A stretch of DNA of 64,000 nt from Oscillibacter sp. (lineage in GTDB: Bacteria > Bacillota > Clostridia > Oscillospirales > Oscillospiraceae), in the NCBI GenBank assembly GCA_014799925.1, contig JAAVHC010000042.1:12322-76321 (forward strand). The letters run 5' to 3'. Under the pieces are notes generated by a model. The model searched no databases. It was not told the origin of the DNA and saw only the letters and a list, made by a program, of their open reading frames with translations. Of this stretch, positions 34,333 through 51,448 are shown piece by piece. Positions within the stretch are counted from its first letter, which is position 1. Every line of letters begins with the position of its first letter. Position numbers and translations under genes: made by a program.

Positions 34333-34974
34333 TTATTTTTGAGGTAAGTTCTTAATGCCGGCGCTTTCAAATTTCTCTTTGCAGATCCTGTAGTCCTGCT
34401 GGGTGTCCAAATCGACCCACACACCCGTGTCGTCTACCGGTATAGTACGAATCCAATCCTCATGCCGCTGCCAGAGTCCCCGGAGACCGTCTCCGCCATC
34501 GTAGGCCAGCAGCTCCGGAATCAGACGAAAGTCGATGAGGGGAGGATGCTTCCGATATCCATCCAGCGTGGGAAACACCACGCCAGGGACCTCCGCAGAC
34601 CACGCCGCTGTCAGCCGCTGGAAGGTCTCCCGCCGCACCACCGGCATATCGCCCGGAAGAAGAAAGAATCCGTCGCAGGCCGGCAGCGCCTGGCAGCCGA
34701 TCCGGATGGAGTGCAGCATATCCGTATTCGCGTAGTCCGGATTCCAGGCAACGCGGACACGCTCGCCATACCGGGCGCTCAGCAGCGAGGCCACCTCCTC
34801 GCCCCGGTATCCGGCTACCACAGTTACGGACGCCGCGCCCCCGGAGAGAACGCTGTCCACAGTGTTCTCAATCACCGTTTTCCCCAGCAGCGGCAGCAGG
34901 GGCTTGAACTCCCCCATGCGTGAGGACAATCCTGCCGCTAAAATGAGCCCGCGGATCCGCGGCGTTCTTTTCAT
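34333..34974 (-). CDS. MocA-like NTP transferase (DVU_1551-type)
   Basis: 213 aa from MKRTPRIRGL; an upstream TTG (34983) with GGAGATAA before it could be the true start. The nucleotidyltransferase signature LILAAGLSSRMGEFKPLLP is intact, then LLPGDMPVVRR (metal Asp). It resembles MocA, which converts molybdopterin cofactor to the cytosine-dinucleotide form used by Mop-type enzymes, and the DVU_1551 group found beside Mop in Desulfovibrio. A Mop-type enzyme lies at 45506, so maturing its cofactor is a reasonable role. Confidence 0.75.
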   Translation of the reverse strand: MKRTPRIRGLILAAGLSSRMGEFKPLLPLLGKTVIENTVDSVLSGGAASVTVVAGYRGEEVASLLSARYGERVRVAWNPDYANTDMLHSIRIGCQALPACDGFFLLPGDMPVVRRETFQRLTAAWSAEVPGVVFPTLDGYRKHPPLIDFRLIPELLAYDGGDGLRGLWQRHEDWIRTIPVDDTGVWVDLDTQQDYRICKEKFESAGIKNLPQK

Positions 34975-35063
34975 AGACTGCAAAACAGTTATCTCCTCTC
35001 TCAAAGCAGATAAGGCTTGATAATAACCTGTCAGCTGCTTCACAAGAAAAATTATCGGCCGCC

Positions 35064-35714
35064 TCACAGCCGCAGCTGGGACTGCGGCAGGGTGGCGCCG
35101 GGCGGAACAACTACGAAGGCCTCTGGCTCCCATGGACCGCTCAGAAGCCTTTCCAGATAGGCAATCGTCCCCTCAATGCTGCAAAACTCCAGCCCCAGCG
35201 CCTGTGCAATCCTCCGCACCTCTTTTTCGGCGGGCTCTATTGGAAAGCATCCCGTATCCAGCAGCGCACAATGGCGGTAATTGCGCAGCATGGACTGAAA
35301 GATCCGCTTGGCCCGCTCCTCACCGTATCTGGCGGCGGCGTGTGAGAACTCGTGCCAGATCGTGCGCTCGCCGCTGAGCCAGCCTTCTGTGAAAAAATAC
35401 GTCTCCCGGAAACCGACCCGCCGCTCCACGGAACCGCACAACAGAGAGATGCAGTCGTCAACCCTGGGCAGAACAAGTTCCGCCGTATCGCTGTGCAGAC
35501 CGGCTGCGGCATTGCCGCAAAAGCCGAAAGCAAGCAGTACACGCTCACATCCGGCGCAGTCATCCAAAGCCTTCTGCAATGTATCATGGAGCATGGCGGG
35601 GACGTTGTGCAGACCGGATTCGATCCAGTGGATGGGATACGTACACCCCAGATTGCCGGCCGCTGCCAGCAGCTCCCGCCGGATGGTCTGGCAGGCAATG
35701 ATCTCAGTTTTCAT
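35064..35714 (-). CDS. DUF1638 protein
   Basis: 216 aa from MKTEIIACQT; the frame opens further up but overlaps GntR. DUF1638 features are LLAFGFCGNAAAGL near 80, DDCISLLCGS near 108 and HCALLDTGCF near 170. In other bacteria DUF1638 proteins sit next to corrinoid methyltransferase systems, as here, where a corrinoid protein is three genes upstream. Function is unknown. The start overlaps the GntR stop by 11 bases. Confidence 0.75.
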   Translation of the reverse strand: MKTEIIACQTIRRELLAAAGNLGCTYPIHWIESGLHNVPAMLHDTLQKALDDCAGCERVLLAFGFCGNAAAGLHSDTAELVLPRVDDCISLLCGSVERRVGFRETYFFTEGWLSGERTIWHEFSHAAARYGEERAKRIFQSMLRNYRHCALLDTGCFPIEPAEKEVRRIAQALGLEFCSIEGTIAYLERLLSGPWEPEAFVVVPPGATLPQSQLRL

Positions 35715-36480
35715 CTTCTCTGTCTGTCTCCCACTTCTTCCCTGGCGTCTGCTGCGGCGCCTGCACCTGGACATAGCCGGAGATGCCGGACAACTGCCCA
35801 TAAGACGGAGAGAGAAACCGCAGCGCATATCCGATCTTGTCCCCGTTATGCTGGATGAAAACTCTTTCCAGAAGAAGCAGCGGAGCGCCTGCGCCGCACT
35901 CCAGGATATCCGCCAGCTCCTCTGTCGCAGCGATGGCCCGCATGGAAAGCTCCGTGTAGTAGGCGTGGGGCGAGACCTTGGGAAAAGTAATGTCCGGAAA
36001 TACGGCAAAGCGCAGCTCGCTCTCAACAGAGGGATAGGCCCTCTCGTAAGGGATATATTTGATGTCATAGGCGACCGGCTTGCTGTCCGCGTTTTTGGTG
36101 ATCTGGGTGAATTCGATCACCTTTCTGGTCGGCGGGATCTCCAGCGCGGCCTGTACCCTCTCGCTGGGCATGACGCCATGGATATCGCGGTAGCCTGTCG
36201 TACACCCCGGAAGCTGTTCGACAAAGGTCATGGAAAAGTCCTCGTGCCTGGGCGTATCCACAAAATAGCCGATCTTGGGACGTGAAAAAATCAATCCGTC
36301 ATACTCCAGCTTCAAAAGCCCCTTCCGCGCCGTATCGCGGCTGACGCCGTGGGTCTCGCAGATACTGCTCTCCGAGGGCAGGATGTCTCCCGGATTCAAT
36401 TCCCCACGGATGATCTGGCCTCGAAGGATGTCCGCGATCTTCATGTAAGCGGGGACTCTCTTTTCCCGGTCCTCACGCAT
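35704..36480 (-). CDS. GntR/HutC-family regulator with UTRA domain
   Basis: 258 aa from MREDREKRVPAYMKIADILR. The winged HTH (residues 10-75) carries LNPGDILPSESSICETHG and DTARKGLLKLEYDG. A UTRA ligand-binding domain follows from about 90. It overlaps the corrinoid-protein gene by 8 bases, so it is co-expressed with it. A perfect 12-bp palindrome TTGTACGTACAA at the transcription start of the methyltransferase operon (54355-54366) matches HutC-type operators, so this protein is the likely repressor, with the effector perhaps a methylated substrate. Confidence 0.85.
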   Translation of the reverse strand: MREDREKRVPAYMKIADILRGQIIRGELNPGDILPSESSICETHGVSRDTARKGLLKLEYDGLIFSRPKIGYFVDTPRHEDFSMTFVEQLPGCTTGYRDIHGVMPSERVQAALEIPPTRKVIEFTQITKNADSKPVAYDIKYIPYERAYPSVESELRFAVFPDITFPKVSPHAYYTELSMRAIAATEELADILECGAGAPLLLLERVFIQHNGDKIGYALRFLSPSYGQLSGISGYVQVQAPQQTPGKKWETDREDEN

Positions 36481-37114
36481 CGTTTTCACCCGCCCTCGCA
36501 ACTGCGTTCTTACAGAATTCCAGCGTGAGCAAGGGGTCCTTGCTGACTGCGTCCGCTCCGACATATTCCAGGGTGGAGTCGCTGACGACGCTCCCGCCCA
36601 CAAGGATGGCGACGTCCCTGCGCATACCGCACTCCACCAACATGTCCACCACCCGGCGCATACAGTTGACCGTATACCCCATCAGGCCGCTCATCAGCAG
36701 GACATCAGGGCGGTATGTCTCCACCGCGTGGACAAAGCGCTCCGGCTTCACATCCACCCCCAGGTCGATCACATCAAACCCCTCGGCCCGCAGCATAGTG
36801 ACGATGATATCCTTCCCGATATCGTGGATATCATCCTGCGCCACGCCGATGACGATCCGGCCAAGCACCTGCATGTTTCTGTTTTTTGCCGGGAAAAGAT
36901 CAATAACCGAGCGGTAGAGCATCCCTGAAACAATGAGGTCGCCGATAAAGAACTCACCGGAGGCAAACGAATCCCCTACCCGCTTGACGCCCTCGTTGAG
37001 CAGGGACAGGATCTCCTGCGTTGTACAGCCCTGATCCAGCAGCTCTCTGGTAATTTCAAGACTCCGCACTTCATTCAGCGACGCAATGGCCTCAATCAGT
37101 TCTTCCTGTTTCAT
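36473..37114 (-). CDS. Corrinoid protein, MtbC/MtaC type
   Basis: 213 aa. The N-terminal helical cap (residues 1-80) is followed by the B12-binding domain with the base-off motif D95-x-H97-x-x-G100 (QDDIHDIGKD); H97 is the lower Co ligand. SGLMGY and VGGSVV are the later B12-domain motifs. It shuttles a methyl group between a substrate methyltransferase and tetrahydrofolate. The only dedicated methyltransferases are in the 51.6-54.3 kb operon, so it may share them or serve a partner outside the window. It is transcribed from the consensus promoter at 37310 through repeat copy B. Confidence 0.9.
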   Translation of the reverse strand: MKQEELIEAIASLNEVRSLEITRELLDQGCTTQEILSLLNEGVKRVGDSFASGEFFIGDLIVSGMLYRSVIDLFPAKNRNMQVLGRIVIGVAQDDIHDIGKDIIVTMLRAEGFDVIDLGVDVKPERFVHAVETYRPDVLLMSGLMGYTVNCMRRVVDMLVECGMRRDVAILVGGSVVSDSTLEYVGADAVSKDPLLTLEFCKNAVARAGENDA

Positions 37115-37134
37115 GGCAGATTCCTCCAGTTACG

Positions 37135-37293
37135 ATTACGTTGGCAATTAAATAATCGCCAACGTAATAAAATTATATTGAATACCGTTTTGCCCGCCCC
37201 TTGCGGGGCAGCCGCGAAACATGGCTATGATTCCTTCGGCAATCTATAGACGCAGCAAGCTTTTGGATTATTTAATTGCCGAAGGAATCATAG
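37135..37293. repeat. Dispersed structured intergenic repeat, copy B
   Basis: The left hairpin is ATTACGTTGGC / GCCAACGTAAT (37135-37168), followed by a central GCCCCTTGCGGGGC hairpin and a right hairpin with a perfect 19-bp stem, CTATGATTCCTTCGGCAAT (37225-37243) / ATTGCCGAAGGAATCATAG (37275-37293). TTGGCAATTAAATAAT (37141) also pairs imperfectly with ATTATTTAATTGCCGAA (37267), like terminal inverted repeats. It lies in the 5' leader of the corrinoid-protein operon, in the opposite orientation to transcription compared with copy A. Confidence 0.85.
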
Positions 37294-37309
37294 CAAACGA
37301 CATGTAAAA

Positions 37310-37338
37310 ATTATATTAGATATGGGAAAAAATGTCAA
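37310..37338 (-). promoter_or_regulatory. Perfect sigma-70 promoter for corrinoid/GntR operon
   Basis: On the minus strand TTGACA (37333-37338), 17-bp spacer, TATAAT (37310-37315). The transcript would start near 37303 and read through the whole of repeat copy B before the corrinoid-protein ATG at 37114. Confidence 0.85.
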
Positions 37339-37382
37339 GGTTGGCAATTTTTGCCCTCGCGCAGGTCGGGCGGCGGGGAGAT

Positions 37383-38858
37383 TCAGACCGCAAAGCCCAT
37401 ATTTTTCGCGAAAACCCGGCGGAAGGCGGGCAGCTCTGCCAGTTCGAGAAATTCGATCTCATCCGCCAGTCTCTGCGCCAGAGACAGATCCGGCTGCCCG
37501 CAGGCCAGGAGCTTTGCGCCTTCACCCGCCGCGTTTCCGGCTGCCGTGATTTTTCCCAGCAGAGCGGCGGGCAGCAGCCCGATCCGGCAAGCGCTTTCCG
37601 GGCGCATGAAGCTGCCGAACGCCCCTGCCAGCATGACGCGGTCGATCTGCTCCAGTGTCAGATCCATCTGAGCCGCCATCAGCTCGATGCCGGCGGCAAT
37701 GGCGCCCTTGGCCAGCTGAAGCTGCCGGATGTCCTCCTGGGTCAGATACACATTGCCGGACAGGCGGATGACCCGCTCTCCATCCGCTTCCTCCCCGCCC
37801 AGGATCTTGCCGCGCCGGTTAAGCAGCCCGGCGTCCAGCGCCGCTGCCGCTGCGTCGATCAGGCCAGAGCCGCAGATGCCGGCGGCGTCTCCGCCGCCAA
37901 TGACGCTGTACCGCAGCGCCCCGTCTTCCAGCCACACGTGGTCGATCGCTCCCGCCGCGCCCCGCATTCCGAACCGGATGCCGGCGCCTTCCAGAGCGGG
38001 TCCGGCGGCAGTGGCACAGGCAACCATCCCCTTTTTCCCGCCCAGCACCATCTCGCCGTTTGTCCCAATATCCACCATCAGGACCGTCTCCTCCGCATCA
38101 TACATCTCCGTGGACAGTACGCAGCCGATGGTATCCGCTCCGACATAGCCGGAAATATCCGGCACTACCAGCAGCGAAGCGTTCTTGCAGATGGGCAGAT
38201 ACTCCCTGGCAGGCCTGATCTCCCCCCTGGTCAGTACCGGCTTAAAGGGAATCTCTGCAAGATTCTGCGGTAAAATGCCCAGGAACAGCTGCTGCATACA
38301 GGGGTTTCCCACAATAGAGACCACGGAGATTTCCTCCGCCTGAATGCCCGCGCTGCCGCAAACCTCCTGAATCTGGCGGGACATTCCCTCGCGCAGAACG
38401 GAACACAGGGCATCCATCCCGCCGTGCATTGCCGCCTGAATGCGGGTGACCACGTCCGCGCCATAGGAGGCTTGGGGGTTAAGCATGTTGGAGACCGCCA
38501 GCTCCCTGCCCGTCTTCCCATCCAGGAGATAGCAGACCAGCGTTGTCGTGCCTGCGTCAAATGCCAGCAAAAATCCTTCTTGTCCCGGTGCGGTCCGCTG
38601 CACCGGGACGTTGCTTTTTGTCAGGATCTCCGGCCGGGACGCCTCCGCCAGCGCAACAGCCATCCCCTCCCGGACTTTCGTCTGACATGCCAGGACCTCT
38701 TTCCCGTCCACTAGGACCCTGCATTTTCCGCAGGTCCCCCGGCCTCCGCAGGGTGCGTCCGGCGCTGATCCGGCCCTGCGCAGAGCCGTGAGGAGGTCCT
38801 CGCCGATTTCTGCTTCTATGGTTTGAGAGCTGTGCGTTACCTGAATGGATGTTTTCAT
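37383..38858 (-). CDS. Corrinoid-activating protein (RACo-like, ASKHA)
   Basis: 491 aa from MKTSIQVTHS, with AGGGGGT upstream. The N-terminal 2Fe-2S ferredoxin domain has Cys 37, 43, 46 and 58 (CGGRGTCGKC ... VLAC). The ASKHA ATPase domain follows: LAFDAGTTTLVCYLL near 118 and MVDIGTNGEMVLG near 260. RACo-type proteins use ATP and low-potential electrons to re-reduce inactive Co(II) corrinoids of O-demethylases. This is the only activator in the window and would serve both corrinoid proteins. Confidence 0.9.
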   Translation of the reverse strand: MKTSIQVTHSSQTIEAEIGEDLLTALRRAGSAPDAPCGGRGTCGKCRVLVDGKEVLACQTKVREGMAVALAEASRPEILTKSNVPVQRTAPGQEGFLLAFDAGTTTLVCYLLDGKTGRELAVSNMLNPQASYGADVVTRIQAAMHGGMDALCSVLREGMSRQIQEVCGSAGIQAEEISVVSIVGNPCMQQLFLGILPQNLAEIPFKPVLTRGEIRPAREYLPICKNASLLVVPDISGYVGADTIGCVLSTEMYDAEETVLMVDIGTNGEMVLGGKKGMVACATAAGPALEGAGIRFGMRGAAGAIDHVWLEDGALRYSVIGGGDAAGICGSGLIDAAAAALDAGLLNRRGKILGGEEADGERVIRLSGNVYLTQEDIRQLQLAKGAIAAGIELMAAQMDLTLEQIDRVMLAGAFGSFMRPESACRIGLLPAALLGKITAAGNAAGEGAKLLACGQPDLSLAQRLADEIEFLELAELPAFRRVFAKNMGFAV

Positions 38859-38887
38859 AAAATACCCCCTGGTTACCGGCATAGTCC

Positions 38888-38917
38888 TTGACAGGAATAC
38901 GGCCGCAATGTTATAAT
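38888..38917 (+). promoter_or_regulatory. Promoter of the DVU_1557-TrsS operon
   Basis: TTGACA (38888-38893), 18-bp spacer, TATAAT (38912-38917), giving a start near 38925 and a 45-base leader to the ATG at 38969. It is nearly perfect consensus in the divergent gap with the RACo gene. Confidence 0.85.
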
Positions 38918-38968
38918 AAATATACAAAATTCGCCATGAAAGCGCAATTTATGGGAGGATCTGAAGAC

Positions 38969-39154
38969 ATGGAGCATTTGATCTGCGCAAAATGCGGCGT
39001 CCCTCTGGAAAAGAAAAAAACCGCGTTTCAGTACCTGGGATATGAGATATACGAGGATCTTCCCCGCTGCCCCCAATGCGGCCAGGTTTACCTGGACGAG
39101 CAGCTGGTCCGGGGGCGGATGCACGAGGTAGAGGTAGAAGTGGAGGACAAGTGA
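38969..39154 (+). CDS. DVU_1557-type small redox protein
   Basis: 61 aa; GGGAGGA lies about ten bases before the ATG. Two CxxC pairs, ICAKCGVP near residue 5 and CPQCGQVY near 33, form a zinc-ribbon or rubredoxin-like site. It matches the pattern of the DVU_1557 family, which occurs beside C-GCAxxG-C-C proteins and Mop-type enzymes. It is the first gene of the plus-strand operon, which suggests an electron or metal carrier for the set. Confidence 0.75.
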   Translation: MEHLICAKCGVPLEKKKTAFQYLGYEIYEDLPRCPQCGQVYLDEQLVRGRMHEVEVEVEDK

Positions 39155-39235
39155 CCTCCGCCCGACGATAGCATCATCAATACGGGAATGCAGTTGTCCG
39201 GCTGTGAGACATTCCCGGAGGGGAGCGTTTATTGA

Positions 39236-39652
39236 ATGGATTATCAAGAGCAAATGGAACTGATCTTCATGCGGGGCGCCTGCTGCGCCGAGGCGCTGGT
39301 GCGTCTGGGGCTGGCGCTGCGCGGGGAGGAAAATGAGCAGTTTGCCCTGGCTGCGGCGGGACTGTGCGACGGGATGCACAGCGGCTGTCTCTGCGGGGCG
39401 CTGATGGGCGGCGCGCTGCTGCTGTCCATGTTTGACAGGAATTTTGCAGCAGGGACGATGATCCCGGAGCTCACCGAGTGGTTCGATGATGTCTATGGTA
39501 TGGAGTACGGCTCGATGAACTGCGAGGATATCACGGAGGGAAACATTCATTGTAAGGCCGAGCGCTGCCGCCCGCTGATGCGCGCGACGGGCAGTAAGTG
39601 CATCGAGCTGCTGGAAACATACGGATACCTGAAAAAGGAGAAGCAGATATGA
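39236..39652 (+). CDS. C-GCAxxG-C-C protein (DVU_1555-type)
   Basis: 138 aa. It has cysteines in the pattern of the C_GCAxxG_C_C family: GACCAEAL near 14, GLCDGMHSGCLCGALMGG near 45, and C...C in NCEDITEGNIHCKAERC near 98. The family is redox- or metal-linked with no proven function. The stop overlaps the next start by ATGA. Confidence 0.75.
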   Translation: MDYQEQMELIFMRGACCAEALVRLGLALRGEENEQFALAAAGLCDGMHSGCLCGALMGGALLLSMFDRNFAAGTMIPELTEWFDDVYGMEYGSMNCEDITEGNIHCKAERCRPLMRATGSKCIELLETYGYLKKEKQI

Positions 39653-40056
39653 AAATCGCCGCTATGACAGAGAGCCCGGGCCTGGAGGGAAAAATTGCGA
39701 AGGATTTTTCTTCCGCCGGATATCTTATGATTCTGGAGACAGAACCGGTGGAGGTTGACGCCGTCTATCCACGGGGAGAGCTGTCGGACTGCGATCTGGC
39801 CGGAAAGGTCGTCGAACACGACTGTGAGGCCGTTCTGTGCGGTCCTATTGAGGAAGCGCCCTTTGTTATTCTGGCAGACGAGGGCTGCGTCACCCGCTAT
39901 CAGGCCAGCGGACTGACTGCCGGCACCGCGCTGCGTGAGATGGAGGCCTACCGCCTGTCCATGATCCCCGATTTCATCGGCGGGACCGGCTGCGGCTCGG
40001 GCGGCGAAGGGGCCTGCGCGGGACACCATGATCATGGAGGAGCTGAAGATGAGTGA
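39649..40056 (+). CDS. NifX/NifB-like protein with metal-binding tail
   Basis: 135 aa. The fold resembles the dinitrogenase iron-molybdenum cofactor family (KIAAMTESPGLEGKIAKDFS, CDLAGKVVEHDC, FVILADEGCVTRY). The C-terminus is Gly/Cys/His-rich (GTGCGSGGEGACAGHHDHGG), a likely metal-binding tail. It is joined to its neighbours by a 4-base overlap before and an 8-base overlap after. It may carry an Fe-S or Mo-type cluster for the TrsS/Mop system. Confidence 0.7.
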   Translation: MKIAAMTESPGLEGKIAKDFSSAGYLMILETEPVEVDAVYPRGELSDCDLAGKVVEHDCEAVLCGPIEEAPFVILADEGCVTRYQASGLTAGTALREMEAYRLSMIPDFIGGTGCGSGGEGACAGHHDHGGAEDE

Positions 40057-41548
40057 ACCATTCCGCCGTACCCGGTCCGTCTGCCCCATTTGCCTGGAAC
40101 CGGCAGCGGCGCAGCTTTGCCGCGATGATAAAACAGGCGCGGTATTTCTGCAAAAAGCCTGCCCGACGCATGGCGCGTTTACCGTGCCCGTGTGGCGCGG
40201 GCGGCTTGATTTCGAAAAATGGACTGCCGGCGCGCAGCGCCTTGGCCCAGAGGAAGGACTGCGCTGTCCCTCCAACTGCGGCATCTGCGCGGAGCATGGA
40301 CGCGGCACATGCTGCGCCCTGCTGGAGGTCACAAAGCGCTGCAATCTTTACTGCCGCTACTGCTTTGCCCATGGCGGAGAGACGGACGGCGAACCGTCTT
40401 TGCAGCAGCTGAAGCAGGCGGTGGAAGATATCCTGCGCCAGTGCGGGACGCCGCTTTTGCAGCTTTCCGGCGGCGAGCCGTCCCTGCGGGATGACCTGCC
40501 GGAGCTGGTGGCCTACGCCAGGGAGCGGGGCTGTCCGGCGGTTCAGCTGAATACCAACGGCCTCCGGCTGGCGGAAGAGCCGGAATACGTACGCCGCCTG
40601 GCCCGGGCAGGGCTGACCATCGTCTTCCTGCAATTTGACGGCGTGACGGACGAGGTCTATCGGACCTTGCGTGGCCGGGACCTCCTGGAAACCAAACTCC
40701 GCGCCATCGAAAACTGCGGCCGTGAGCGGATCGGCGTGACGCTGGTCCCCACCGTAGTGCGCGGTGTGAACGATGGAATGCTGGGGGACATCATCCGCCT
40801 GGGCGCGTCCCTGTCGCCCGCCGTGCGGGGCGTTCATTTCCAACCGGTCTCCCACTTTGGCCGCTATCCGGTCACCCCCCAGGATGATATGCGCTATACC
40901 CTCGATGAACTGATGGATGACATTTGCCGGCAGACGGGGCTCTCTGCGGATATCTTCCAGCCCTCCTGCTGCGATCACCCGCTCTGCGGTTTCCACGTCA
41001 GCGCTTTGGCTAACCCCTGCTGCGGCGACGCACAACCTGTTCAGACGGAATCCTGCTGCTGCGGCGATACACAGCCAACTCAGACGGAATCCTGCTGCTG
41101 CGGTGATACACAGCCAGCTCAGACGGAATCCTGCTGCTGCGGCGATGCACAGCCGACTCAGACGGAATCCTGCTGCTGCGGTGATGCACAGCCAACTCAG
41201 GCGGAATCCTGCTGCGGTATAACCCCGCTGCCTCCGGCCGCTCCCGCTCCCCGCAAGCAGCAGTCCCCCGCGGATGAAAACCGGAATTATGTTATCCGGC
41301 ACTGGCGGCGCAGTCTCTCGCCCGAGGAGGAAGCGCCCCCCTCTCTGGATGCTTCGGGCGCAAAGGATCTGGATACCTTCCTCCGTCTGCTCAAAACCAG
41401 GAGCTTTACCCTTACTGCCATGGCTTTCCAGGATGCCTGGAACCTGGATATCGAGCGGCTGCACAGCTGCAGCCTGCATGTATACAGCGAAGGGAAGGTG
41501 AAACCTTTTTGTGCCAACTACCTGACTGCTGCCCAGACGGAAAGCTGA
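40049..41548 (+). CDS. trsS: Radical SAM protein TrsS-like with Cys-rich repeats
   Basis: 499 aa from MSEPFRRTRS (GGAGGAG before it; 8-base overlap with the previous gene). N-terminal Cys pairs VCPICLEP and the region CPSNCGICAEHG precede the radical SAM cluster site C98-x3-C102-x2-C105 in KRCNLYCRYCFAHGG, then LSGGEPSLRDDL. Residues about 323-390 are a tandem 13-residue repeat, SCCCGD(T/A)QPTQTE, with two or three cysteines per unit. A C-terminal SPASM-like tail carries SCSLHVYSEGKVKPFCANY. The TrsS family is named for such repeats, which in some members contain selenocysteine; here all are Cys. The substrate is unknown. Confidence 0.8.
   Translation: MSEPFRRTRSVCPICLEPAAAQLCRDDKTGAVFLQKACPTHGAFTVPVWRGRLDFEKWTAGAQRLGPEEGLRCPSNCGICAEHGRGTCCALLEVTKRCNLYCRYCFAHGGETDGEPSLQQLKQAVEDILRQCGTPLLQLSGGEPSLRDDLPELVAYARERGCPAVQLNTNGLRLAEEPEYVRRLARAGLTIVFLQFDGVTDEVYRTLRGRDLLETKLRAIENCGRERIGVTLVPTVVRGVNDGMLGDIIRLGASLSPAVRGVHFQPVSHFGRYPVTPQDDMRYTLDELMDDICRQTGLSADIFQPSCCDHPLCGFHVSALANPCCGDAQPVQTESCCCGDTQPTQTESCCCGDTQPAQTESCCCGDAQPTQTESCCCGDAQPTQAESCCGITPLPPAAPAPRKQQSPADENRNYVIRHWRRSLSPEEEAPPSLDASGAKDLDTFLRLLKTRSFTLTAMAFQDAWNLDIERLHSCSLHVYSEGKVKPFCANYLTAAQTES
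41017..41216 (+). repeat. 39-bp tandem repeat coding Cys-rich linker of TrsS
   Basis: GACGGAATCC recurs exactly every 39 bases at 41044, 41083, 41122 and 41161, with a diverged unit at 41200. Units are highly similar and in frame (13 codons each). The repeats are likely to vary in number between strains by slippage. Confidence 0.9.
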
Positions 41549-42123
41549 GTCCCTGTGTGCCCGCCATCATTGCGGGCAAGCTTCCTCCCGGCGGACGGAT
41601 CGTGGAAATCGGTTCCGGCAATGGCATCCTGCTATCCTATCTGGCTGCCTCCGGCTTTCAGAGTGTGATGGGCGTAGAGCCGTCTCCGCCGCCCCAGGGG
41701 AACGGCCCCACCGTCCTGGCAGGACGGGCGGAGGCCCTGCCCCTGCCGGACGCCTGCTGTGACGCGGCCGTGATGGAATGCGTATTCTCACTGTGCGAGG
41801 CGGAGCCTTCCGTGCGGGAGCTTTCCAGAGTGCTGGTCCCCGGGGGGATCGCCGTCATTGCCGATCTTTTTTCCGGCAGCGGAGGTACCGTTCTGCACCG
41901 CAGTCCCATGGTCCGCCGGGTCCTTCCCCCCGATGAATTATGCGTCTGTTTCCACAGGTATTTCGACCTGCAGTCCTTTGAGGACCACACGGCGGAGCTG
42001 CGAAATCTGTTTCTGCAAACGCTTTTCCAGGGAAACGCCCAAAGATTTTGGGACCCCTCAGAAATGGAAGAACTGAAAAAAGCAAAAGCTGGATATGGAA
42101 TATGGATTTGGAAAAAACACTGA
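41509..42123 (+). CDS. trsM: TrsM-like SAM-dependent methyltransferase
   Basis: 204 aa, probably from the TTG at 41509 (GGAAGGTG about nine bases before), overlapping TrsS by 40 bases. Motif I is IVEIGSGNG near residue 30, then a post-I acidic VMGVEPS and LSRVLVPGGIAV, typical class I methyltransferase. The N-terminus is short and the start uncertain. Close linkage with TrsS matches the TrsS/TrsM pair. Its methyl acceptor is unknown; a TrsS-made product is the simplest guess. Confidence 0.7.
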   Translation: MCQLPDCCPDGKLSPCVPAIIAGKLPPGGRIVEIGSGNGILLSYLAASGFQSVMGVEPSPPPQGNGPTVLAGRAEALPLPDACCDAAVMECVFSLCEAEPSVRELSRVLVPGGIAVIADLFSGSGGTVLHRSPMVRRVLPPDELCVCFHRYFDLQSFEDHTAELRNLFLQTLFQGNAQRFWDPSEMEELKKAKAGYGIWIWKKH

Positions 42124-43205
42124 GCCTTTTGAATCAGCAGATCGCCTACGCCCGCGGGCACAGTCCATTTTATGCCAGGCTGCCGGAGCACCCTCTTACG
42201 GACCTCCGGCAGCTTTCTGCGCTGCCAATGGTGACGGCGGCGGATCTTTCACTGCATGGGGAGGAAATGCTCTGCTGTTCCCCGGCAAAGGTGCGGCGTA
42301 TGGTGACGCTGACCACCTCCGGGACCGCCGGACCTTATAAGCGTCTGGCCTTTACGGAGGCGGACCTGGAGCACACAATGGACTTCTTTCATCACGGTAT
42401 GAACGCTCTGTGCGGACCCGGGTCAGCTGTTGGGATCTTTATGCCGGGGACCCATGCTGATGGTCTCTGCCAGCTGCTGTCGGAGGGACTGCGGCGTTTC
42501 GGTGCGATCCCCCACATCTATGGACCGGTCTCTGACCCGGAGGACGCGGCACGGTTCTGCCGGGAGTTCCGCATCCAGGTCATGGTGGGCATTCCCGCGC
42601 AGCTGCGCCGGTTATCCCTGGCGGCTCCCGATCTCCGCCCGGAGCTGGTCCTGCTGTCTGCGGATTATACGGCGGAATCTCTGATGGAGACGATTGCGCG
42701 GCAATGGAATTGCCGTGTCTACGTCCACTATGGATCGACGGAGAGCGGTCTGGGCTGCGCCGTGGAGACGCCCCGCCGTGCCGGGATGGAACTGAGGCCG
42801 GATGTTCTTCTTGAGACGCTGCCGGACGGCGAGCTTGTGTTGACCACGCTGTGCCGCGAGGCCATGCCGCTGATCCGCTACCGGACCGGAGATCTGGGGA
42901 AACTGCGTCCGGATGGCGCTCTGGAAGTTGTGTTCGGACGGAAAACAGAGCTTGAGAAGCCCGTCCCCATTTACCGGCTGGACGAGCTGCTCTTTGGCCT
43001 GGATGAAGTGCTGGATTTTGCCGCATGGTTCGGGGACGGCGTGCTGCGGCTGGAAATACTGGGAGACGCCGCACGCGCGAAGCAGCGGCTGTACGGCGCC
43101 TTCCCCGCATATGAGATACAGATCGTAACCGTTTCCGCCCTGGAGCGGAATTCCACCGCAAAGCGCGGCACGGGCCGGTTCACTCCGCCCCATACTCCGC
43201 TTTGA
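42102..43205 (+). CDS. AMP-dependent CoA-ligase-like protein (DVU_1553-type)
   Basis: 367 aa from MDLEKTLSLL; it overlaps TrsM by 22 bases and lacks a strong ribosome site, consistent with coupled translation. Adenylate-forming motifs: TLTTSGTAGPYKR near 70 (A3), YVHYGSTESGLG near 210 (A5), MPLIRYRTGDLG near 260 (A7/A8). It is shorter than acyl-CoA ligases and resembles phenylacetate-CoA-ligase-type enzymes. In Desulfovibrio this type occurs in the same gene group as TrsS and Mop. The acid it activates is unknown. Confidence 0.75.
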   Translation: MDLEKTLSLLNQQIAYARGHSPFYARLPEHPLTDLRQLSALPMVTAADLSLHGEEMLCCSPAKVRRMVTLTTSGTAGPYKRLAFTEADLEHTMDFFHHGMNALCGPGSAVGIFMPGTHADGLCQLLSEGLRRFGAIPHIYGPVSDPEDAARFCREFRIQVMVGIPAQLRRLSLAAPDLRPELVLLSADYTAESLMETIARQWNCRVYVHYGSTESGLGCAVETPRRAGMELRPDVLLETLPDGELVLTTLCREAMPLIRYRTGDLGKLRPDGALEVVFGRKTELEKPVPIYRLDELLFGLDEVLDFAAWFGDGVLRLEILGDAARAKQRLYGAFPAYEIQIVTVSALERNSTAKRGTGRFTPPHTPL

Positions 43206-45342
43206 TCGTCATGCGGTGGGAATAGGCATTATATACGGTGCGGACATCCTCTCCGGAGGGAGCATACTCCACCCAGTAGGTGACGTAGCCGATTTTCAGA
43301 TGGCAGATCCGGTGGCCGCTCTCCAGATCCACCAGATACCTGCTCTCTTTTTCGCAGGTCTCAATGGCCTGGGCCAGATCCTCTTCCAGAATCAGGTCGC
43401 CGCTCATTCTGGCCGCTACCCGCTCCTCCATTTCCAGCTTCAGCATCGTATGTTCCTCCCGTTCCTGTGTTTCTCCCGTTGGATACGCCGTCAGGAGCGC
43501 TCTTTTGAGCGCCCGGCGGTTATTTCTGCGCTCTGTCGCTGTAGGCGGACGGCGGAGGCCGTCGTTGATGCCGCAGATCAGGTCCAGTATATGGCGGCAG
43601 CTCTTGCCCCGGGAGGAAAAAATATCCCGGCAGTTTGTGCAGTAGGTGATATACGGCAGATCGCTCTGTTCCGCCTGCTCAGCCGCCTGCGTCTTGACGA
43701 CCACCGGATTCACCGCGTAGCCGTGGCCGCCCCAGCTGCAGCACTGCGCCATACCCTTTGCGTATTTCAATTCCTCCAGAGGGATGCCGCTGCGGGACAC
43801 AAGGGAGCGGACTACGCTCTGGATTTCAGGAAAGTCCCGGCTGGAACAGGGATCGAACACTGCCGCTGTCAGCGCGTCAGACTTCGGTTCAATTTCCAAC
43901 AGCTCATAGACAATCTTTACTGGAATATCCGGCATGTACTCCCGGAAGACCCGGTAGCAGGACGGGCAGGAGACCAGCACAACAGGCTTTCCGGCCCGCT
44001 CCCAGAAGCCGCGGATCATCTCATGCTCCCGGGCGAAAGCCTCCGCCTCTCCGGCCCACAGGGCCGGCGCGCCGCAGCAGCGCAGGAGCAGGGCGGTCTC
44101 CGGATACTTGGACAGCAGCTTTTCGTAGGTCATGGTCACATACCGGGGATCGGACCCGCCAGACTGGCAGCCAGGGAAAAAGAGGTAGCTGCACACCGCC
44201 TGCGGCTGATAAAAGTATGCAGCCTGGGGGCCGTTGGAAAAGGCCATGTCCCGCAGCCAGTATTCATGGTGCGCCGGCGGCAGCAGCCCCTTGGAGCACA
44301 GCTCCGTCCTGGAGCGCAGTAAAAACGCGCCGATGTCAATCTGAGAAGGGCAGACCGTTTTGCACAGCCCACAGAAATTGCAGGCCCCGATCTCCCGCAT
44401 CCCGGCCCGGCCCTGGGTTTCCGGAAATACGTTCAGCGCAAGCCCTACGTCCTTGGACAGATCTCTGGGCGTCTGCCCATACTGCCGCAGCAGTACGCAC
44501 TCCTGCATACACGCGGAGCAGTCGCACCGGGTACACCGGGCGGCCTCCTGCCGGGCCTCGCCCTTGGAGAGAGGCTCCCGCCTCCTCTTCAGAGGAGCCG
44601 CCTCCTCTCCGGAGGAGCGCTCCATTTGCAGGGGCTTCTTCCGCCCTGTTTTCAGGAACCACTCGATGGCGTCCGCGGCCCGCGTCCCTTCCGCCAGCGC
44701 CTCCACCGGGGAGAGTCCCTCCGGGGCCCGGAACACGCGGGGGTCCTCCTCCCGCAGGCTTACGCCGGACGAAAGGTATACCGCGTCAAATTCCAATTCT
44801 GACAGGTGCTCTACCGGATGGCCGGTATGAAACTGACAGGAGGTAAACTGGAATTCCTGTAAAACAGCCGGCTCGAACTTCTCCCGGGGCAGCGTCTCCT
44901 CCAGCTCCGAACAGATCCGGTCCTTCTTCTCAAAAACTGAGACGCTGTAATTGAGCACAGCCAGCCGCCGGGCGCAGGAAAGCCCGGACAGCCCCGCGCC
45001 CACAATGGCAATGCGCTCCTTTTTTTCCGGAAGGTTGTACTGGACCGGAGCGGTGGAGCGCGCATAGGCCATGGATGCCTGCTCCAGGGCCGGCATGTCC
45101 ACCGCCTGTTCCAATACCGTCCGGCAGGCGTTCCCGCAGGGAGCGGGGCAGATCTGCCACACAAGCGCCGGGAATCCCACCGCCTCCCGGTACAGGTTGA
45201 ACGCCCCGTGAAAGCTCCCCTTTTTAAGTTTTCCCAGAAAGTCCCGGATATTCAGCGAAAACGGGCAGGCGCTGCTGCACGGGGGTTCCTTTCCGTGGAG
45301 ACACCGCAGTTCAATTTCGTTGCTCGCTACATCGTGTTCCAT
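43180..45342 (-). CDS. Flavin/dicluster Fe-S oxidoreductase with CCG domains
   Basis: 720 aa from MEHDVASNEI. Order: GltD-type N-terminal Cys cluster (PPCSSACPF, CPAPCGNAC), FAD-binding IAIVGAGLSGLSCARRLA near 140, two 4Fe-4S motifs (CTRCDCSACMQEC near 310; CNFCGLCKTVCPSQ near 355), then HdrB-like CCG motifs (FFPGCQSGG ... LLRCCGAP, and QCCSWGGHGYA), and a 90-residue C-terminal piece. It probably moves electrons between NAD(P)H or a flavin and a low-potential partner for Mop or TrsS. The stop overlaps the convergent CoA-ligase gene by 26 bases. Family: pyridine nucleotide-disulfide oxidoreductase/dicluster-binding protein. Confidence 0.8.
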   Translation of the reverse strand: MEHDVASNEIELRCLHGKEPPCSSACPFSLNIRDFLGKLKKGSFHGAFNLYREAVGFPALVWQICPAPCGNACRTVLEQAVDMPALEQASMAYARSTAPVQYNLPEKKERIAIVGAGLSGLSCARRLAVLNYSVSVFEKKDRICSELEETLPREKFEPAVLQEFQFTSCQFHTGHPVEHLSELEFDAVYLSSGVSLREEDPRVFRAPEGLSPVEALAEGTRAADAIEWFLKTGRKKPLQMERSSGEEAAPLKRRREPLSKGEARQEAARCTRCDCSACMQECVLLRQYGQTPRDLSKDVGLALNVFPETQGRAGMREIGACNFCGLCKTVCPSQIDIGAFLLRSRTELCSKGLLPPAHHEYWLRDMAFSNGPQAAYFYQPQAVCSYLFFPGCQSGGSDPRYVTMTYEKLLSKYPETALLLRCCGAPALWAGEAEAFAREHEMIRGFWERAGKPVVLVSCPSCYRVFREYMPDIPVKIVYELLEIEPKSDALTAAVFDPCSSRDFPEIQSVVRSLVSRSGIPLEELKYAKGMAQCCSWGGHGYAVNPVVVKTQAAEQAEQSDLPYITYCTNCRDIFSSRGKSCRHILDLICGINDGLRRPPTATERRNNRRALKRALLTAYPTGETQEREEHTMLKLEMEERVAARMSGDLILEEDLAQAIETCEKESRYLVDLESGHRICHLKIGYVTYWVEYAPSGEDVRTVYNAYSHRMTIKAEYGAE

Positions 45343-45413
45343 AGTTGACAGCCTTTCTGTTGCAAATCTCCTGCATGGCTCACTTCCGGGCTTATAGCCC
45401 GAAAATAATATTG

Positions 45414-45453
45414 GCGCCGCCCTGCCGCTCAAGCTGAGCCAGCAGGGCGGCGC
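45414..45453 (-). terminator. Terminator after the Mop gene
   Basis: Perfect 12-bp stem GCGCCGCCCTGC / GCAGGGCGGCGC with an inner GCTCA/TGAGC hairpin, followed on the minus strand by CAATATTATTTT. It ends the methyltransferase-transporter-Mop transcript before the oxidoreductase gene. Confidence 0.85.
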
Positions 45454-45505
45454 GCTGCATAGGGAAAGAGGAGTATAGAATCCTGATACCTTTTAAGAAA
45501 AAACG

Positions 45506-48466
45506 TTACAGCTCAACAATGCCCTTGGCTTCGCCGGCCTCGTCCTTTTTCTCCTCCTGAGCGGGCTTGGCGGGTTCCGCAGCGGTCATGGAGGCGATCA
45601 GCCGGGCTACCCAGTCCGCCGGGACCGGGGTATCCATCAGCTCCTCCAGCTCATCGTAGAAGTCAGAACCCAGGAAGTAGGGCGCGGGCGGCTCTGTCGT
45701 CTGACCGGCCGCTACCTGGTCCAGGCCCCTCTTCACCGTCTCGGGACGGGCGGGAATGTTATAGACCCGCACGCCGGTCGCGTCATGGATGCCGTTCAGG
45801 AATGCGTTGTGCTCACCGGAGAAGAAGCACTCAGACAGGCCGTTGGACCCGAAGGGACCGGCCGGACAGGGATCGTCCTCGATCCAGACGACTTCCATGT
45901 GGTCCGGAACCTCCTCAATGGAGGGCAGGCCCGCGCCGATGATGTTGCCGTGGCGCTTGACATCGTCATAGTCTTCCGTGAGGGCATACCCGATATTCTG
46001 GGCGTAGCCGCCGTAGACCTGGCCCTCCGCCGAGAGCCGGTTGGCGATCTTGCCGCAGTCCGCCCAGGTCTTGACGCTCAGGACCCTGGTCTTGCCGGTG
46101 GCGGTGTCCACGCCCACCTCGGCTACGCAGAAGCCGATCATCGGTTTGGGCTGCCAGCCGCCCAGGCCGGTGCTGTAGTCAATCTTCACATAATTCTGGG
46201 GCGTGATAGTGAAGTGGCCCAGGAAGGAGGTCTGGAGGCCCTCCGCCTTCAGTTCCTCATAAGTACGGTAGGTCCCGTCCGGCTTTTTCAGCTCTTCCAG
46301 CATCAGCCTGGCGGCCTCACGGATTGCGCCGCCGTTCATGAAGTGGGAGCGGCTGCCGGCGGAAATGCCGCTGTTGGGGCAATCCTGGGAGTCGTTGATG
46401 TCCAGTACGATGTCCTCCGGGTTCACGCCCATGGGCTTGAGGGCCTCCAGTGCGCTGGAGAGGCTGCCGATGTCGCCGCCCTGTCCCATCTCGTGGTAGG
46501 TGTTGTAGACGTAGATCTTGTTGTCCTCTTTGATCTCCAGACGTGCCTCCGCCTTGTCCTTGTTGCTCCCCAGGGGGATGAAGAACATGGGCGCGATTCC
46601 CACGCCGCGCCTGAACTCCGGCGTGGTCTCCCTGGCGGCGCGCTCCTTGCACTCGTGGTAGTAGGGCCGCGCCATATCCATGATCCGCTGGTACTGGGTG
46701 CAGTCAAAGGTCTCGTTGCAGACGGAGACGTCGCCATCCTTGAGGATGTTCTGATAACGGAACTCAAAGGGATCCATTCCCAGTTTCTCCGCCATCATAT
46801 CCATCATGCCCTCCATGGCGGTGCTGACCTGAGGAATGCCATATCCGCGCCATGCCGTGGTGTGGTTGTGGTTGGTCGTCACCATGCGCACCACGCCGCG
46901 CACGTTGGGGATCCGGTAGGGTACGCCGAAGTGCATGTACTTGGTCATAATGGAGTCCGCGCCCTCCACATAGGCGCCGTGATCGACCGCCAGGTCATAC
47001 TCCAGAGCCGTCAGCTTACCGTTCTCGTCGCAGCCCAGCCGGCAGTTGGTGTACATGGAGGACCGTTTGCCGGCGTAGTGCTGATGCTCCTCCCAGGTCA
47101 TGACCAGAGAGACGGGATGGCCGGTGATCACGCAGGCCGCGCCGGCCAGCGCAAAGGAAGCGGGGTCAATGGACCAGCCGAAGCTGGCGCCCACCGCGCC
47201 GTGCTGCATCACACGCAGGCCCTTTTCCTCCACGCCGATGCCCTTTCCGATGGTCATCAGGTTGGGGTATACCGCCTGGGTCTTGCAGGAGATGGCCAGC
47301 TTGCCCTCCTCATCCCGGTAGGCGATAACGATATCGCCCTCCATGCTCAGATGGGGCTGGCGGGAGGTCTTGAAACGTCCGGAGACCTCGTGGGCAGAGG
47401 CACGGATGATCTCGTCCGCGTCCTCGCCCATAGCGGTGTGCTGGGTGATGAACATATTGGGATATCCGGGATGGATCTCCACCGCGCCGGGCGCAACCGC
47501 CTCCAGCGGATTCATGTACTCAGGCAGCTGCTCGTACTCCATCCTGACCTTTTTGGCCGCTTCCCGCGCGTGGTCCACGCTGTCCGCCACCACCAGGCCG
47601 ATGACGTCGCCCCAGCGAAGGATTTTCTTCTCACTGAGGACCGGGCGCGTAGGCGCTGTGATCTTGGAGCGGGGATGGGCCACATACTGGTTGATCAGGT
47701 TGTTTCCTCCGGCGGCATAGATGTCCTTCGCGGTGATCACCTTCACCACGCCGGGCATCTTTTCCGCCTCGGAGGTATCAATGCTCAGAATGTTGGCATG
47801 ATGGGTCACCCTGGGCTGCACCAGGGCCACGTGCAGCAGATCAGAGGGCAGCTTCAGGCTCATGTCCTCGCCGTAATCCACCGTACCGGTCACCTTGCCG
47901 AGGGCGCTGGGCCGGGGCAGGGTGGAGCCGTAATACTCGCCCTTGCAGTCCTCATTGCGGAAGGTGATGTCCTCCATGGAGGCCTCGCCCCGCATGACCT
48001 TCGCCGCGGCCATCACCGCGTCCACGATCTGCTTGTAACCCGTGCAGCGGCAGTAGTTCCGGTTCTTCTTGAACCAGGCGCGCACCTCTTCCCGGGTGGG
48101 ATCGGGGTTCTCCTGGAGCAGCTGATACGCGGACACAATAAAGCCCGGGGTACAGAAGCCGCACTGTACGCCGCCGTAGTACATGAACGCCTGCTGCAGC
48201 GGGTGGAGGTGCATCGGCGTACCTACGCCCTCAATGGTGATGATCTTTGCAAACTCCGGAATGGTTTTCATTTTCCTGGTGCAGCTGCGCACCACCTTCC
48301 CGTCCACCAGGACGGAGCAGACGCCGCACACACCGATGCCGCATCCGATCTTCACACCGGTCAGTCCGATCCGGCGCAGGACGTCCGCCAGAGTGTCCTT
48401 TTCCAGATCAAATACCACCATTCTGTTGGCGCCGTTGATGTTCAGCCACAGCTTTTTATATGCCAT
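45506..48466 (-). CDS. mop: Molybdenum aldehyde oxidoreductase, Mop type
   Basis: 986 aa in one chain. First [2Fe-2S]: C42, C47, C50, C62 in KIGCGIGVCGVCSVLVDGK. Second: C102, C105, C139, C141 (QCGFCTPG, NYCRCTG). The long Mo-binding region follows, ending with PAGPFGSNGLSECFFS, where the Glu matches the catalytic Glu of Desulfovibrio Mop in GVGE. It oxidises an aldehyde to an acid. No separate FAD subunit is present. It shares a transcript with two GPH transporters and corrinoid methyltransferases. An acidic C-terminal tail (EEKKDEAGE) is extra. It is unlike the three-subunit xanthine dehydrogenases usual in Clostridia. Confidence 0.9.
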   Translation of the reverse strand: MAYKKLWLNINGANRMVVFDLEKDTLADVLRRIGLTGVKIGCGIGVCGVCSVLVDGKVVRSCTRKMKTIPEFAKIITIEGVGTPMHLHPLQQAFMYYGGVQCGFCTPGFIVSAYQLLQENPDPTREEVRAWFKKNRNYCRCTGYKQIVDAVMAAAKVMRGEASMEDITFRNEDCKGEYYGSTLPRPSALGKVTGTVDYGEDMSLKLPSDLLHVALVQPRVTHHANILSIDTSEAEKMPGVVKVITAKDIYAAGGNNLINQYVAHPRSKITAPTRPVLSEKKILRWGDVIGLVVADSVDHAREAAKKVRMEYEQLPEYMNPLEAVAPGAVEIHPGYPNMFITQHTAMGEDADEIIRASAHEVSGRFKTSRQPHLSMEGDIVIAYRDEEGKLAISCKTQAVYPNLMTIGKGIGVEEKGLRVMQHGAVGASFGWSIDPASFALAGAACVITGHPVSLVMTWEEHQHYAGKRSSMYTNCRLGCDENGKLTALEYDLAVDHGAYVEGADSIMTKYMHFGVPYRIPNVRGVVRMVTTNHNHTTAWRGYGIPQVSTAMEGMMDMMAEKLGMDPFEFRYQNILKDGDVSVCNETFDCTQYQRIMDMARPYYHECKERAARETTPEFRRGVGIAPMFFIPLGSNKDKAEARLEIKEDNKIYVYNTYHEMGQGGDIGSLSSALEALKPMGVNPEDIVLDINDSQDCPNSGISAGSRSHFMNGGAIREAARLMLEELKKPDGTYRTYEELKAEGLQTSFLGHFTITPQNYVKIDYSTGLGGWQPKPMIGFCVAEVGVDTATGKTRVLSVKTWADCGKIANRLSAEGQVYGGYAQNIGYALTEDYDDVKRHGNIIGAGLPSIEEVPDHMEVVWIEDDPCPAGPFGSNGLSECFFSGEHNAFLNGIHDATGVRVYNIPARPETVKRGLDQVAAGQTTEPPAPYFLGSDFYDELEELMDTPVPADWVARLIASMTAAEPAKPAQEEKKDEAGEAKGIVEL

Positions 48467-49929: not shown

Positions 49930-49935
49930 ACCGTC

Positions 49936-49966
49936 GTACGGTGCAGCCGGAAGGACTGCACCGTAC
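49936..49966 (-). promoter_or_regulatory. Hairpin between the two GPH transporter genes
   Basis: Perfect 11-bp stem GTACGGTGCAG / CTGCACCGTAC with a 9-base loop, just upstream of the second transporter start at 49929. There is no T-tract, so it may control translation or mRNA stability rather than termination. Confidence 0.5.
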
Positions 49967-49995
49967 AAATTGTTCCCTCGAAATCCTGTTTACTT

Positions 49996-51369: not shown

Positions 51370-51448
51370 ACTTGGACCCTCCTTGTGATCCACACATTTT
51401 ATTATTTTTCTATGTTACTGCCGGGGACACCCATGCGGCCCGCCCGCC

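Follow-up and report, generated by a model that had tools for sequence, protein, structure and literature searches.

The 64,000-nucleotide stretch of Oscillibacter sp. DNA analyzed here (contig JAAVHC010000042.1 of assembly GCA_014799925.1, positions 12,322 to 76,321), referred to as the window, contains a block of six plus-strand genes that is convergent with two minus-strand genes encoding a dicluster protein (DICL) and a molybdopterin-dependent aldehyde oxidoreductase (MOP). The association of this block with MOP is real, and the findings implicate the partners of MOP, namely DICL and the small block protein R1557, rather than MOP itself. From sequence comparisons, we tentatively propose that the block makes a redox cofactor of the thiol/disulfide type on the Glu-Asp-Lys tail of R1557, which would carry electrons from MOP to DICL; this reading is possible rather than probable. 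A broader version is more doubtful, namely that the system would be a second, unrelated invention of the lipoyl arm, in which the terminal Lys of a zinc ribbon bears a new sulfur redox group, built in situ by a Tes-like radical S-adenosylmethionine (SAM) (seleno)enzyme and a PaaK-like ligase, and serves MOP and, in other lineages, enzymes of the Hdr and fumarate-reductase-like types in a wide range of anaerobes. Observed directly were the set of genes and its association with MOP, the invariance of the R1557 tail, the CCG motifs of DICL, cluster ligands like those of Tes, and modules that have no MOP next to them.

The window lies on contig C17 of a genome of 2.97 Mb in 84 contigs with a completeness of 97.9%. 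The first gene of the block encodes R1557 (38969..39154, plus strand), a DVU_1557-type small protein of 61 amino acids (DUF7479) with two CxxC pairs and a C-terminal Val-Glu-Asp-Lys, which scored 74.7 bits against NF045645 (curated cut-off 60) and 82.4 bits against PF24292. It is followed on the same strand by CGA1555, a protein of the C-GCAxxG-C-C type (39236..39652; PF09719 55.8 bits), an accessory NifX-like protein (39643..40056), the Tes-like radical SAM protein TrsS (40028..41548), the DVU_1556-type SAM methyltransferase TrsM (41509..42123; PF08241 49.8 bits), and LIG, a DVU_1553-type adenylate-forming ligase (from Met at 42102 to 43205) that matched a PaaK structure at 2.3e-08. On the minus strand (43180-48466), the NAD(P)/flavin and dicluster protein DICL (43180..45432) scored 635.1 bits against NF045663 (curated cut-off 530) and 35.3 bits against the CCG family PF02754. 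The adjoining MOP (45506..48466) scored 1128.5 bits against NF045668 (curated cut-off 1100), matched the Desulfovibrio gigas structure 1sij at 1.8e-248, and contained PF00111, PF01799, PF02738, and PF20256, which are the two [2Fe2S] and two molybdopterin domains that MOP membership requires.

The initial annotation had described six plus-strand genes with overlapping ends. Their number and strand held, and overlaps of 10, 29, 40, and about 22 nt in gene order were found at every junction except the first, where R1557 and CGA1555 are separated by 81 nt. The family names it had given (DVU_1557, DVU_1555, TrsS, TrsM, and DVU_1553) were the best NCBIfam matches, of which only DVU_1557 exceeded its cut-off within the block: CGA1555 reached 90.3 of 103 bits (NF045669), TrsM 99.4 of 155 bits (NF045667), LIG 285.9 of 300 bits (NF045666), and TrsS 487.7 of 490 bits (NF045646), a shortfall of 2.3 bits in a match split in two by a repeat insert. 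Its dicluster oxidoreductase at 43180 and Mop at 45506 both exceeded curated cut-offs, and its NifX-like gene just passed PF02579 (26.8 bits, cut-off 26.3) with no NCBIfam match at E 0.001.

A scan of a species-genome collection identified 180 TrsS relatives, of which the best 80 were fetched and, with the window, analyzed as 81 loci; neighbor families were defined by our own open reading frame (ORF) picking and clustering, with no gene caller. LIG was found in 71 of these loci, DICL in 66, TrsM in 66, CGA in 64, MOP in 58, and R1557 in 50, followed by the nucleoside triphosphate (NTP) transferase (46), XdhC (39), histidine phosphatase (HisP; 39), MoeA (15), and the NifX-like protein (6). The usual order was MoeA, MOP, DICL, R1557, TrsM, CGA, TrsS, LIG, XdhC, NTP transferase (with or without HD), and HisP. 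The window locus shares this TrsS neighborhood, and its gene grouping is not due to chance, as the same families recur around TrsS in the 81 loci. A metal cofactor based on NifX was set aside with NifX in only 6 loci, as was a link to cobalamin, with CobT, CobS, and CobU adjoining TrsS only in L003, L026, and L078; L003 and L078 also hold a xylose-isomerase-like protein (PF01261).

Among 243 genomes of the class, MOP above its cut-off and a strong TrsS occurred in the same 12, where strong denotes a score over the cut-off in 11 genomes and the whole-protein score of 487.7 bits in the window. LIG at 285 bits or more was found in the same 12 genomes and in G110, where the operon is complete but for TrsS and half of MOP is cut off by the end of the contig (locus L088 on G110:C146, MOP-DICL-R1557-TrsM-CGA-LIG-HisP). 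Weaker TrsS-like genes without MOP were present in G025 and G215 of this sample. Of 199 Desulfovibrionaceae, 129 contained both genes, six only MOP, two only TrsS, and 62 neither, with MOP counted by the 278-residue D. gigas fragment at E <= 1e-60 and not by the family model. Five of the six MOP-only genomes (all but G319) were inspected: in four the contig ends inside the operon (L091, L092, L096, and L097), and G448 has two MOP loci (L093 and L119), one on a contig that ends soon after DICL. As for the TrsS-only genomes, the contig of L095 starts inside DICL, and L094 represents a tandem TrsS paralogue. The Fisher test of co-occurrence assumes independent genomes, an assumption that does not hold.

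The phylum was additionally scanned for tandem TrsS loci, because the order of genome G118 offers only six genomes; 28 of 398 genomes, including that of the window, matched a tandem-type TrsS query at E <= 1e-55, and 24 of 30 fetched loci carried MOP. The recurrence of a Desulfovibrio-like gene set together with Mop, as noted by the initial annotation, is hence stronger than was claimed (12 of 12 class genomes, and both genes in 129 of the Desulfovibrionaceae). A scatter of these genes with no link to Mop, which it had named as a refutation, was excluded by the class and Desulfovibrionaceae scans.

R1557 proteins are mostly 60-75 residues long and contain two CxxC pairs. Among 112 distinct complete ORFs, the C-terminal tripeptide was EDK in 107 and EAK, EGK, and EEK in one each, and two were artefacts (a frameshifted piece in L005 and a run of N in L037); Glu-x-Lys with nothing after it was the end of all 110 sound copies. 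The deviant tails were in L075 (EAK), L098 (EGK), and L148 (EEK), none of which has MOP beside it. Since synonymous codons vary (GAG 61 and GAA 49, GAT 61 and GAC 46, AAA 73 and AAG 37) and all three stop codons occur, the constraint acts on the protein. Gene overlap as its cause was ruled out by this variation and by the 81-nt gap after R1557 in the window. Nine other families from these loci were compared, and their most frequent C-terminal tripeptide reached at most 6 of 46 (XdhC), with 9 of 100 in MOP. Of 131 database homologues of R1557, comprising 11 of 12 (one nearly identical to the window protein was excluded) together with the 120 best of a further 1137, 130 end in EDK and one in EEK.

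Free C-termini fixed to this degree are known from carriers and precursors such as MoaD/ThiS, DsrC, and the mycofactocin precursor, and the R1557 tail was therefore treated as a site of chemistry and not as a mere folding element. The predicted R1557 model consists of two strands and a C-terminal helix (predicted local distance difference test score 78), the end of the helix having low confidence. PF24292 was its only Pfam domain, with no lipoyl carrier domain. The invariance of the tail is a new observation, absent both from the initial annotation and from the one-line descriptions of the NCBIfam models.

A GltD-like NAD(P)/flavin part is joined in DICL to ferredoxin-type clusters and to two HdrB-type CCG motifs, and both HdrB-type Cys motifs were full in 93-94% of 69 DICL sequences. 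When there was room downstream, R1557 followed within 700 nt in 103 of 121 DICL ORFs. The other 18 included the window and L001, where the genes are convergent, L072, L077, and L079, where R1557 lies upstream, and several low-scoring pieces. In L150, each of two DICL-like genes has its own R1557. MOP sequences, among them those of the window, G057, G071, G118:C44, G159:C203, and G194:C199, fell into two score groups of about 1130-1180 and about 1330-1640 bits, the latter being the main one. The window MOP is nearest to those of D. gigas and D. desulfuricans (1sij and 1dgj), yet it belongs to the lower-scoring group (1128 bits). G118, G159, and G194 seem to carry one MOP of each group, the partial gene of G118 scoring 1256 bits.

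The MOP of G282 shows no difference from the D. gigas crystal sequence over 278 residues and stands in the row MoeA, MOP, DICL, R1557, TrsM, CGA, TrsS, LIG, XdhC, and HisP; no NTP transferase was seen within this 19 kb stretch. According to the available text of two sources, MOP purified from native D. gigas cells has activity in the absence of a sulfido ligand; its cofactors are an ordinary pyranopterin cytosine dinucleotide and two [2Fe-2S] centers (PMC3877041, PMC10223205). Because the native enzyme shows only ordinary cofactors, a lasting mark made on MOP by TrsS is unlikely, and a modified pterin on MOP was set aside; a small or labile change could have been missed. D. gigas MOP provided the first crystal structure of the xanthine oxidase family, and its physiological partner flavodoxin is called putative in the available portions of PMC10223205. 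The conserved MOP-DICL-R1557 unit, found also around the MOP of G282, names concrete electron partners.

The operon consists of three parts: the MOP cofactor genes (MoeA, NTP transferase, and XdhC), the working unit MOP-DICL-R1557, which is sometimes duplicated, and a set of TrsS, TrsM, and mostly LIG and CGA, which tends to stay single. Fifteen Desulfovibrionaceae gave at least two matches to MOP; in 13 of these, TrsS was matched exactly once, and a catabolic pathway specific to MOP was set aside on this ground. Nineteen outlying MOP copies (L101-L118 and L122, of which L108 and L110 are cut by contig ends) were picked for their distance from TrsS and so lack it by choice. Five of them have DICL and R1557 beside them, one of which (L117) also has LIG and CGA, and none has TrsM. 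Enzymes that modify a carrier would be expected to form such a shared set, acting on a small protein that duplicates and whose tail is fixed.

TrsS also occurred away from MOP. MOP was not nearby in 23 TrsS loci, several of which are merely cut by contig ends. Among the 22 searchable genomes of these loci, 13 have a MOP of at least 1079 bits elsewhere, three hold only MOP fragments (G004, G015, and G021), and six have no MOP of that strength (best scores 799, 563, 454, 421, and 256 bits, and none in G019). In the genomes of L072, L075, and L079, TrsS, TrsM, LIG, and R1557 were present and no MOP reaching the usual score was detected. L075 combines HdrA2-like and HdrCB-like proteins with R1557, TrsM, two TrsS, and LIG in a 1.3 Mb genome with no match to the MOP family, and L072 combines a flavoprotein whose best match is TfrA with DICL, R1557, TrsM, TrsS, and LIG. 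In L098, a dihydrolipoyl dehydrogenase (475.6 bits, cut-off 408.8) lies between TrsM and TrsS, with MOP elsewhere in the genome (G118). In L127, a dihydrolipoyl dehydrogenase precedes TrsS-TrsS-LIG; at the level of the locus no MOP lies beside it, and no R1557 or TrsM was seen on its short upstream stretch. Among the partners other than DICL, only dihydrolipoyl dehydrogenase passed its curated cut-off. The common partner element is, as predicted from these family matches, an enzyme of the disulfide-handling kind. The tandem TrsS-TrsS-LIG of L094, L099, and L127 was accompanied by DUF5714, and L094 and L099 also hold genes resembling 2-hydroxyglutaryl-CoA dehydratase D.

The nearest solved relative of TrsS is Tes (7tol, 1.3e-66), with Foldseek template modeling scores of 0.68/0.70 for the predicted model. 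TrsS consists of a rubredoxin-like part, an N-terminal [4Fe4S] cluster, a radical SAM domain, and C-terminal cluster motifs. TrsS keeps the residues that in Tes bind the radical SAM cluster, the N-terminal cluster, and the iron of the rubredoxin-like part, as well as the labile Met439. The protein nevertheless falls outside Tes itself (NF045702 289.6 bits against a cut-off of 450, and Val at the place of Tyr459). In an alignment of 31 rows, one sequence being included twice, the window TrsS held the conserved Cys, His, and Met cluster residues of its relatives, including Cys320. The TrsS cluster of 87 sequences includes four that look like MoaA (two in L023 and one each in L040 and L069), and residue percentages from this set are therefore slightly low. 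The Cys-rich tandem repeat reported in the initial annotation was confirmed as 5.1 copies of a 39-nt unit (41017..41215, plus strand) coding for CCCGDTQPTQTES-like units. Since most relatives have a CC or CCC motif at this site, the repeat represents a local expansion of a family feature. Selenocysteine was rejected: no in-frame TGA precedes the stop codon of the window TrsS, the read-through TGA of L123 and L124 comes only after the conserved C-terminal PFC motif and is probably a normal stop, and no selenocysteine site was found in these few genes. Weaker TrsS-like genes of about 340 bits adjoin membrane enzymes of the ICMT/PEMT and Lgt types (by Pfam) in L089 and look-alike ORFs (by eye) in L090, and may represent a Tes-related branch acting on lipids.

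If the tail of R1557 carries a cofactor, LIG would activate an organic acid as an adenylate and join it to the tail, most simply at the terminal lysine. TrsS would then make a new bond on the attached group through a 5'-deoxyadenosyl radical, perhaps inserting sulfur from its own C-terminal iron-sulfur cluster. The Tes reaction passes through a bond between a substrate carbon and a cluster sulfur, as described in the available text of PMC9433317, and TrsS could by analogy employ this reaction so that sulfur stays in its product, in the manner of lipoyl synthase. TrsM would methylate the group, and CGA1555 and the CC motif of TrsS may aid redox or cluster repair. MOP would oxidize aldehydes and R1557 would take up the electrons; the HdrB-type double CCG site of DICL would re-oxidize the reduced R1557, from which electrons would pass to NAD(P) or flavin. 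In the wider operon of the relatives, XdhC, the MocA-like transferase, and MoeA would make the molybdenum cofactor of MOP. A new cofactor on the tail would provide TrsS, TrsM, and the DVU_1553 ligase with a function at once.

Several observations weigh against a modified tail. No modified R1557 residue has been observed, and the carrier model needs an unseen group because the tail has no Cys; the four invariant Cys of R1557 could themselves be redox-active or carry electrons when unmodified. LIG is PaaK-like and not a lipoate ligase, and it is absent nearby in 10 of the 81 TrsS loci. Genome G110 (99% complete) keeps MOP, DICL, R1557 with EDK, TrsM, CGA, and LIG, and no TrsS was found in it. 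Flavodoxin takes electrons from D. gigas MOP in vitro, as stated in the available portions of PMC10223205. Of the 19 outlying MOP copies, 14 have no R1557 nearby. The pattern of one TrsS is not general among the five class genomes with two or more MOPs above the cut-off, as G101 and G194 have one strong TrsS and TrsS is no less numerous than MOP in G118, G139, and G159, and our confidence in a carrier was lowered slightly for this reason. In the loci without MOP, the HdrA2, HdrCB, and TfrA matches are below curated cut-offs. The two dihydrolipoyl dehydrogenases share 79% identity and perhaps reflect one event, and since G118 has GcvH, the enzyme may act on lipoyl-protein of the ordinary kind. 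No LipA was detected in either G118 or G811.

Four other explanations were weighed. The initial annotation had raised a role of TrsS in Mop maturation, and TrsS, TrsM, LIG, and CGA would then act on the molybdenum cofactor or the apoprotein, as XdhC, MocA, and MoeA do. The near-perfect co-occurrence with MOP in two groups, which stands, is consistent with this role, as are the operon order running from MoeA to HisP and the finding that multiple MOP copies go with a single TrsS in 13 of the 15 Desulfovibrionaceae. It is nevertheless only partly supported and, in our view, less likely than a carrier, given the ordinary cofactors of native D. gigas MOP in the available text of PMC3877041, the TrsS, R1557, and DICL-like modules in genomes where no MOP was found, and a fixed R1557 tail that it does not explain. 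A pathway in which MOP oxidizes an intermediate aldehyde, LIG activates the resulting acid, and TrsS, in the manner of Tes, joins or modifies a lipid-like substrate would suit both the closest characterized relative of TrsS and the acyl-adenylating type of LIG. Such a biosynthetic or catabolic route is very improbable: in Desulfovibrionaceae the number of TrsS genes mostly remains at one as MOP copies increase, and TrsS and LIG are retained in genomes in which no MOP was detected.

Two further explanations dispense with a modification of R1557. A free small thiol/disulfide compound, comparable to coenzymes M and B of methanogens, might be oxidized by DICL or an Hdr-type enzyme, with the R1557 tail only docking; the HdrB-type motifs of DICL and the TfrA-like and HdrA-like neighbors in loci without MOP fit this scheme, whereas the position of R1557 next to DICL and its fixed last residues would go unexplained, which makes it rather improbable. 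R1557 might instead carry electrons without modification, as a zinc ribbon or rubredoxin-like protein that docks through its tail in DICL or MOP, and the TrsS set would then make something unrelated. The four invariant Cys of R1557, the NCBI name 'redox protein', and a predicted helix that runs almost to the C-terminus speak for such a carrier, whereas, against it, TrsM, TrsS, and LIG are its constant companions in modules lacking MOP, and we hold it to be improbable. A cofactor borne on the R1557 tail remains our preferred, tentative reading.

Outside the block, the window encodes a MocA-like NTP transferase (34333..35133, minus strand; PF12804 117 bits), which is probably a MOP cofactor gene. 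The initial annotation had assigned it to the DVU_1551 type; NF045665 is indeed its best match, at 194 bits against a cut-off of 315, and its second half, the HD half, is missing, since only profile positions 2-199 of 359 were matched. On the minus strand from this gene to the block (34333-38927) are a DUF1638 protein, a GntR/UTRA regulator, a B12-binding corrinoid protein (CorP), and a RACo-type activator. RACo adjoins the block also in L001, and CorP and RACo lie near it in L072, L077, and L079. After MOP, two long, similar minus-strand ORFs (48532-51393), which cluster together, look by eye like sugar transporters of the major facilitator superfamily. The C-terminal Lys column of the LIG alignment stood at 89%.

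In the literature searched, as far as its available text extends, TrsS together with radical SAM appeared only in PMC13188914, as a table row, and NF045646 likewise only there; DVU1559 is named in two papers, and no mention was found of DVU1551, 1553, 1555, 1556, 1557, DUF7479, NF045645, or DUF5714. The main text of PMC10102598 contains no DVU155x gene name. The NCBIfam models for TrsS and DVU_1551-1557 (NF045645, NF045646, NF045663, and NF045665-NF045669) describe the same families and the same gene set. They provide names and no function, and their one-line descriptions include neither the fixed tail, the double CCG of DICL, nor the versions without MOP. Tes (MJ0619, GDGT-MAS, 7tol) shares its domain plan and cluster motifs with TrsS. 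In contrast to Tes, however, TrsS has a replacement of Tyr459, an invariant Cys320 and a CC motif with no match in Tes, and a place in an operon of a redox enzyme, not of lipids.

The nearest functional parallel, by analogy, is LbpA/sHdr, in which a dedicated ligase, sLpl(AB), and two radical SAM proteins, LipS1 and LipS2, lipoylate a small carrier, as described in the available portions of PMC6067878 and PMC10332631. An LplA/LipB-type ligase with LipA or LipS1/S2, which defines lipoyl systems, was not found here, LIG being PaaK-like and TrsS Tes-like; a disulfide-handling partner (HdrB-type or dihydrolipoyl dehydrogenase) was recognized from family matches. The two systems, as far as those sources describe LbpA/sHdr, resemble each other in a small carrier, an HdrB-type partner, a dedicated adenylating ligase, and a radical SAM enzyme, here sometimes two, in one cluster. 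They differ in that the carrier here is a zinc ribbon, the ligase PaaK-like, the radical SAM protein Tes-like, and the partner an aldehyde oxidoreductase, and they have no homologous parts as far as tested.

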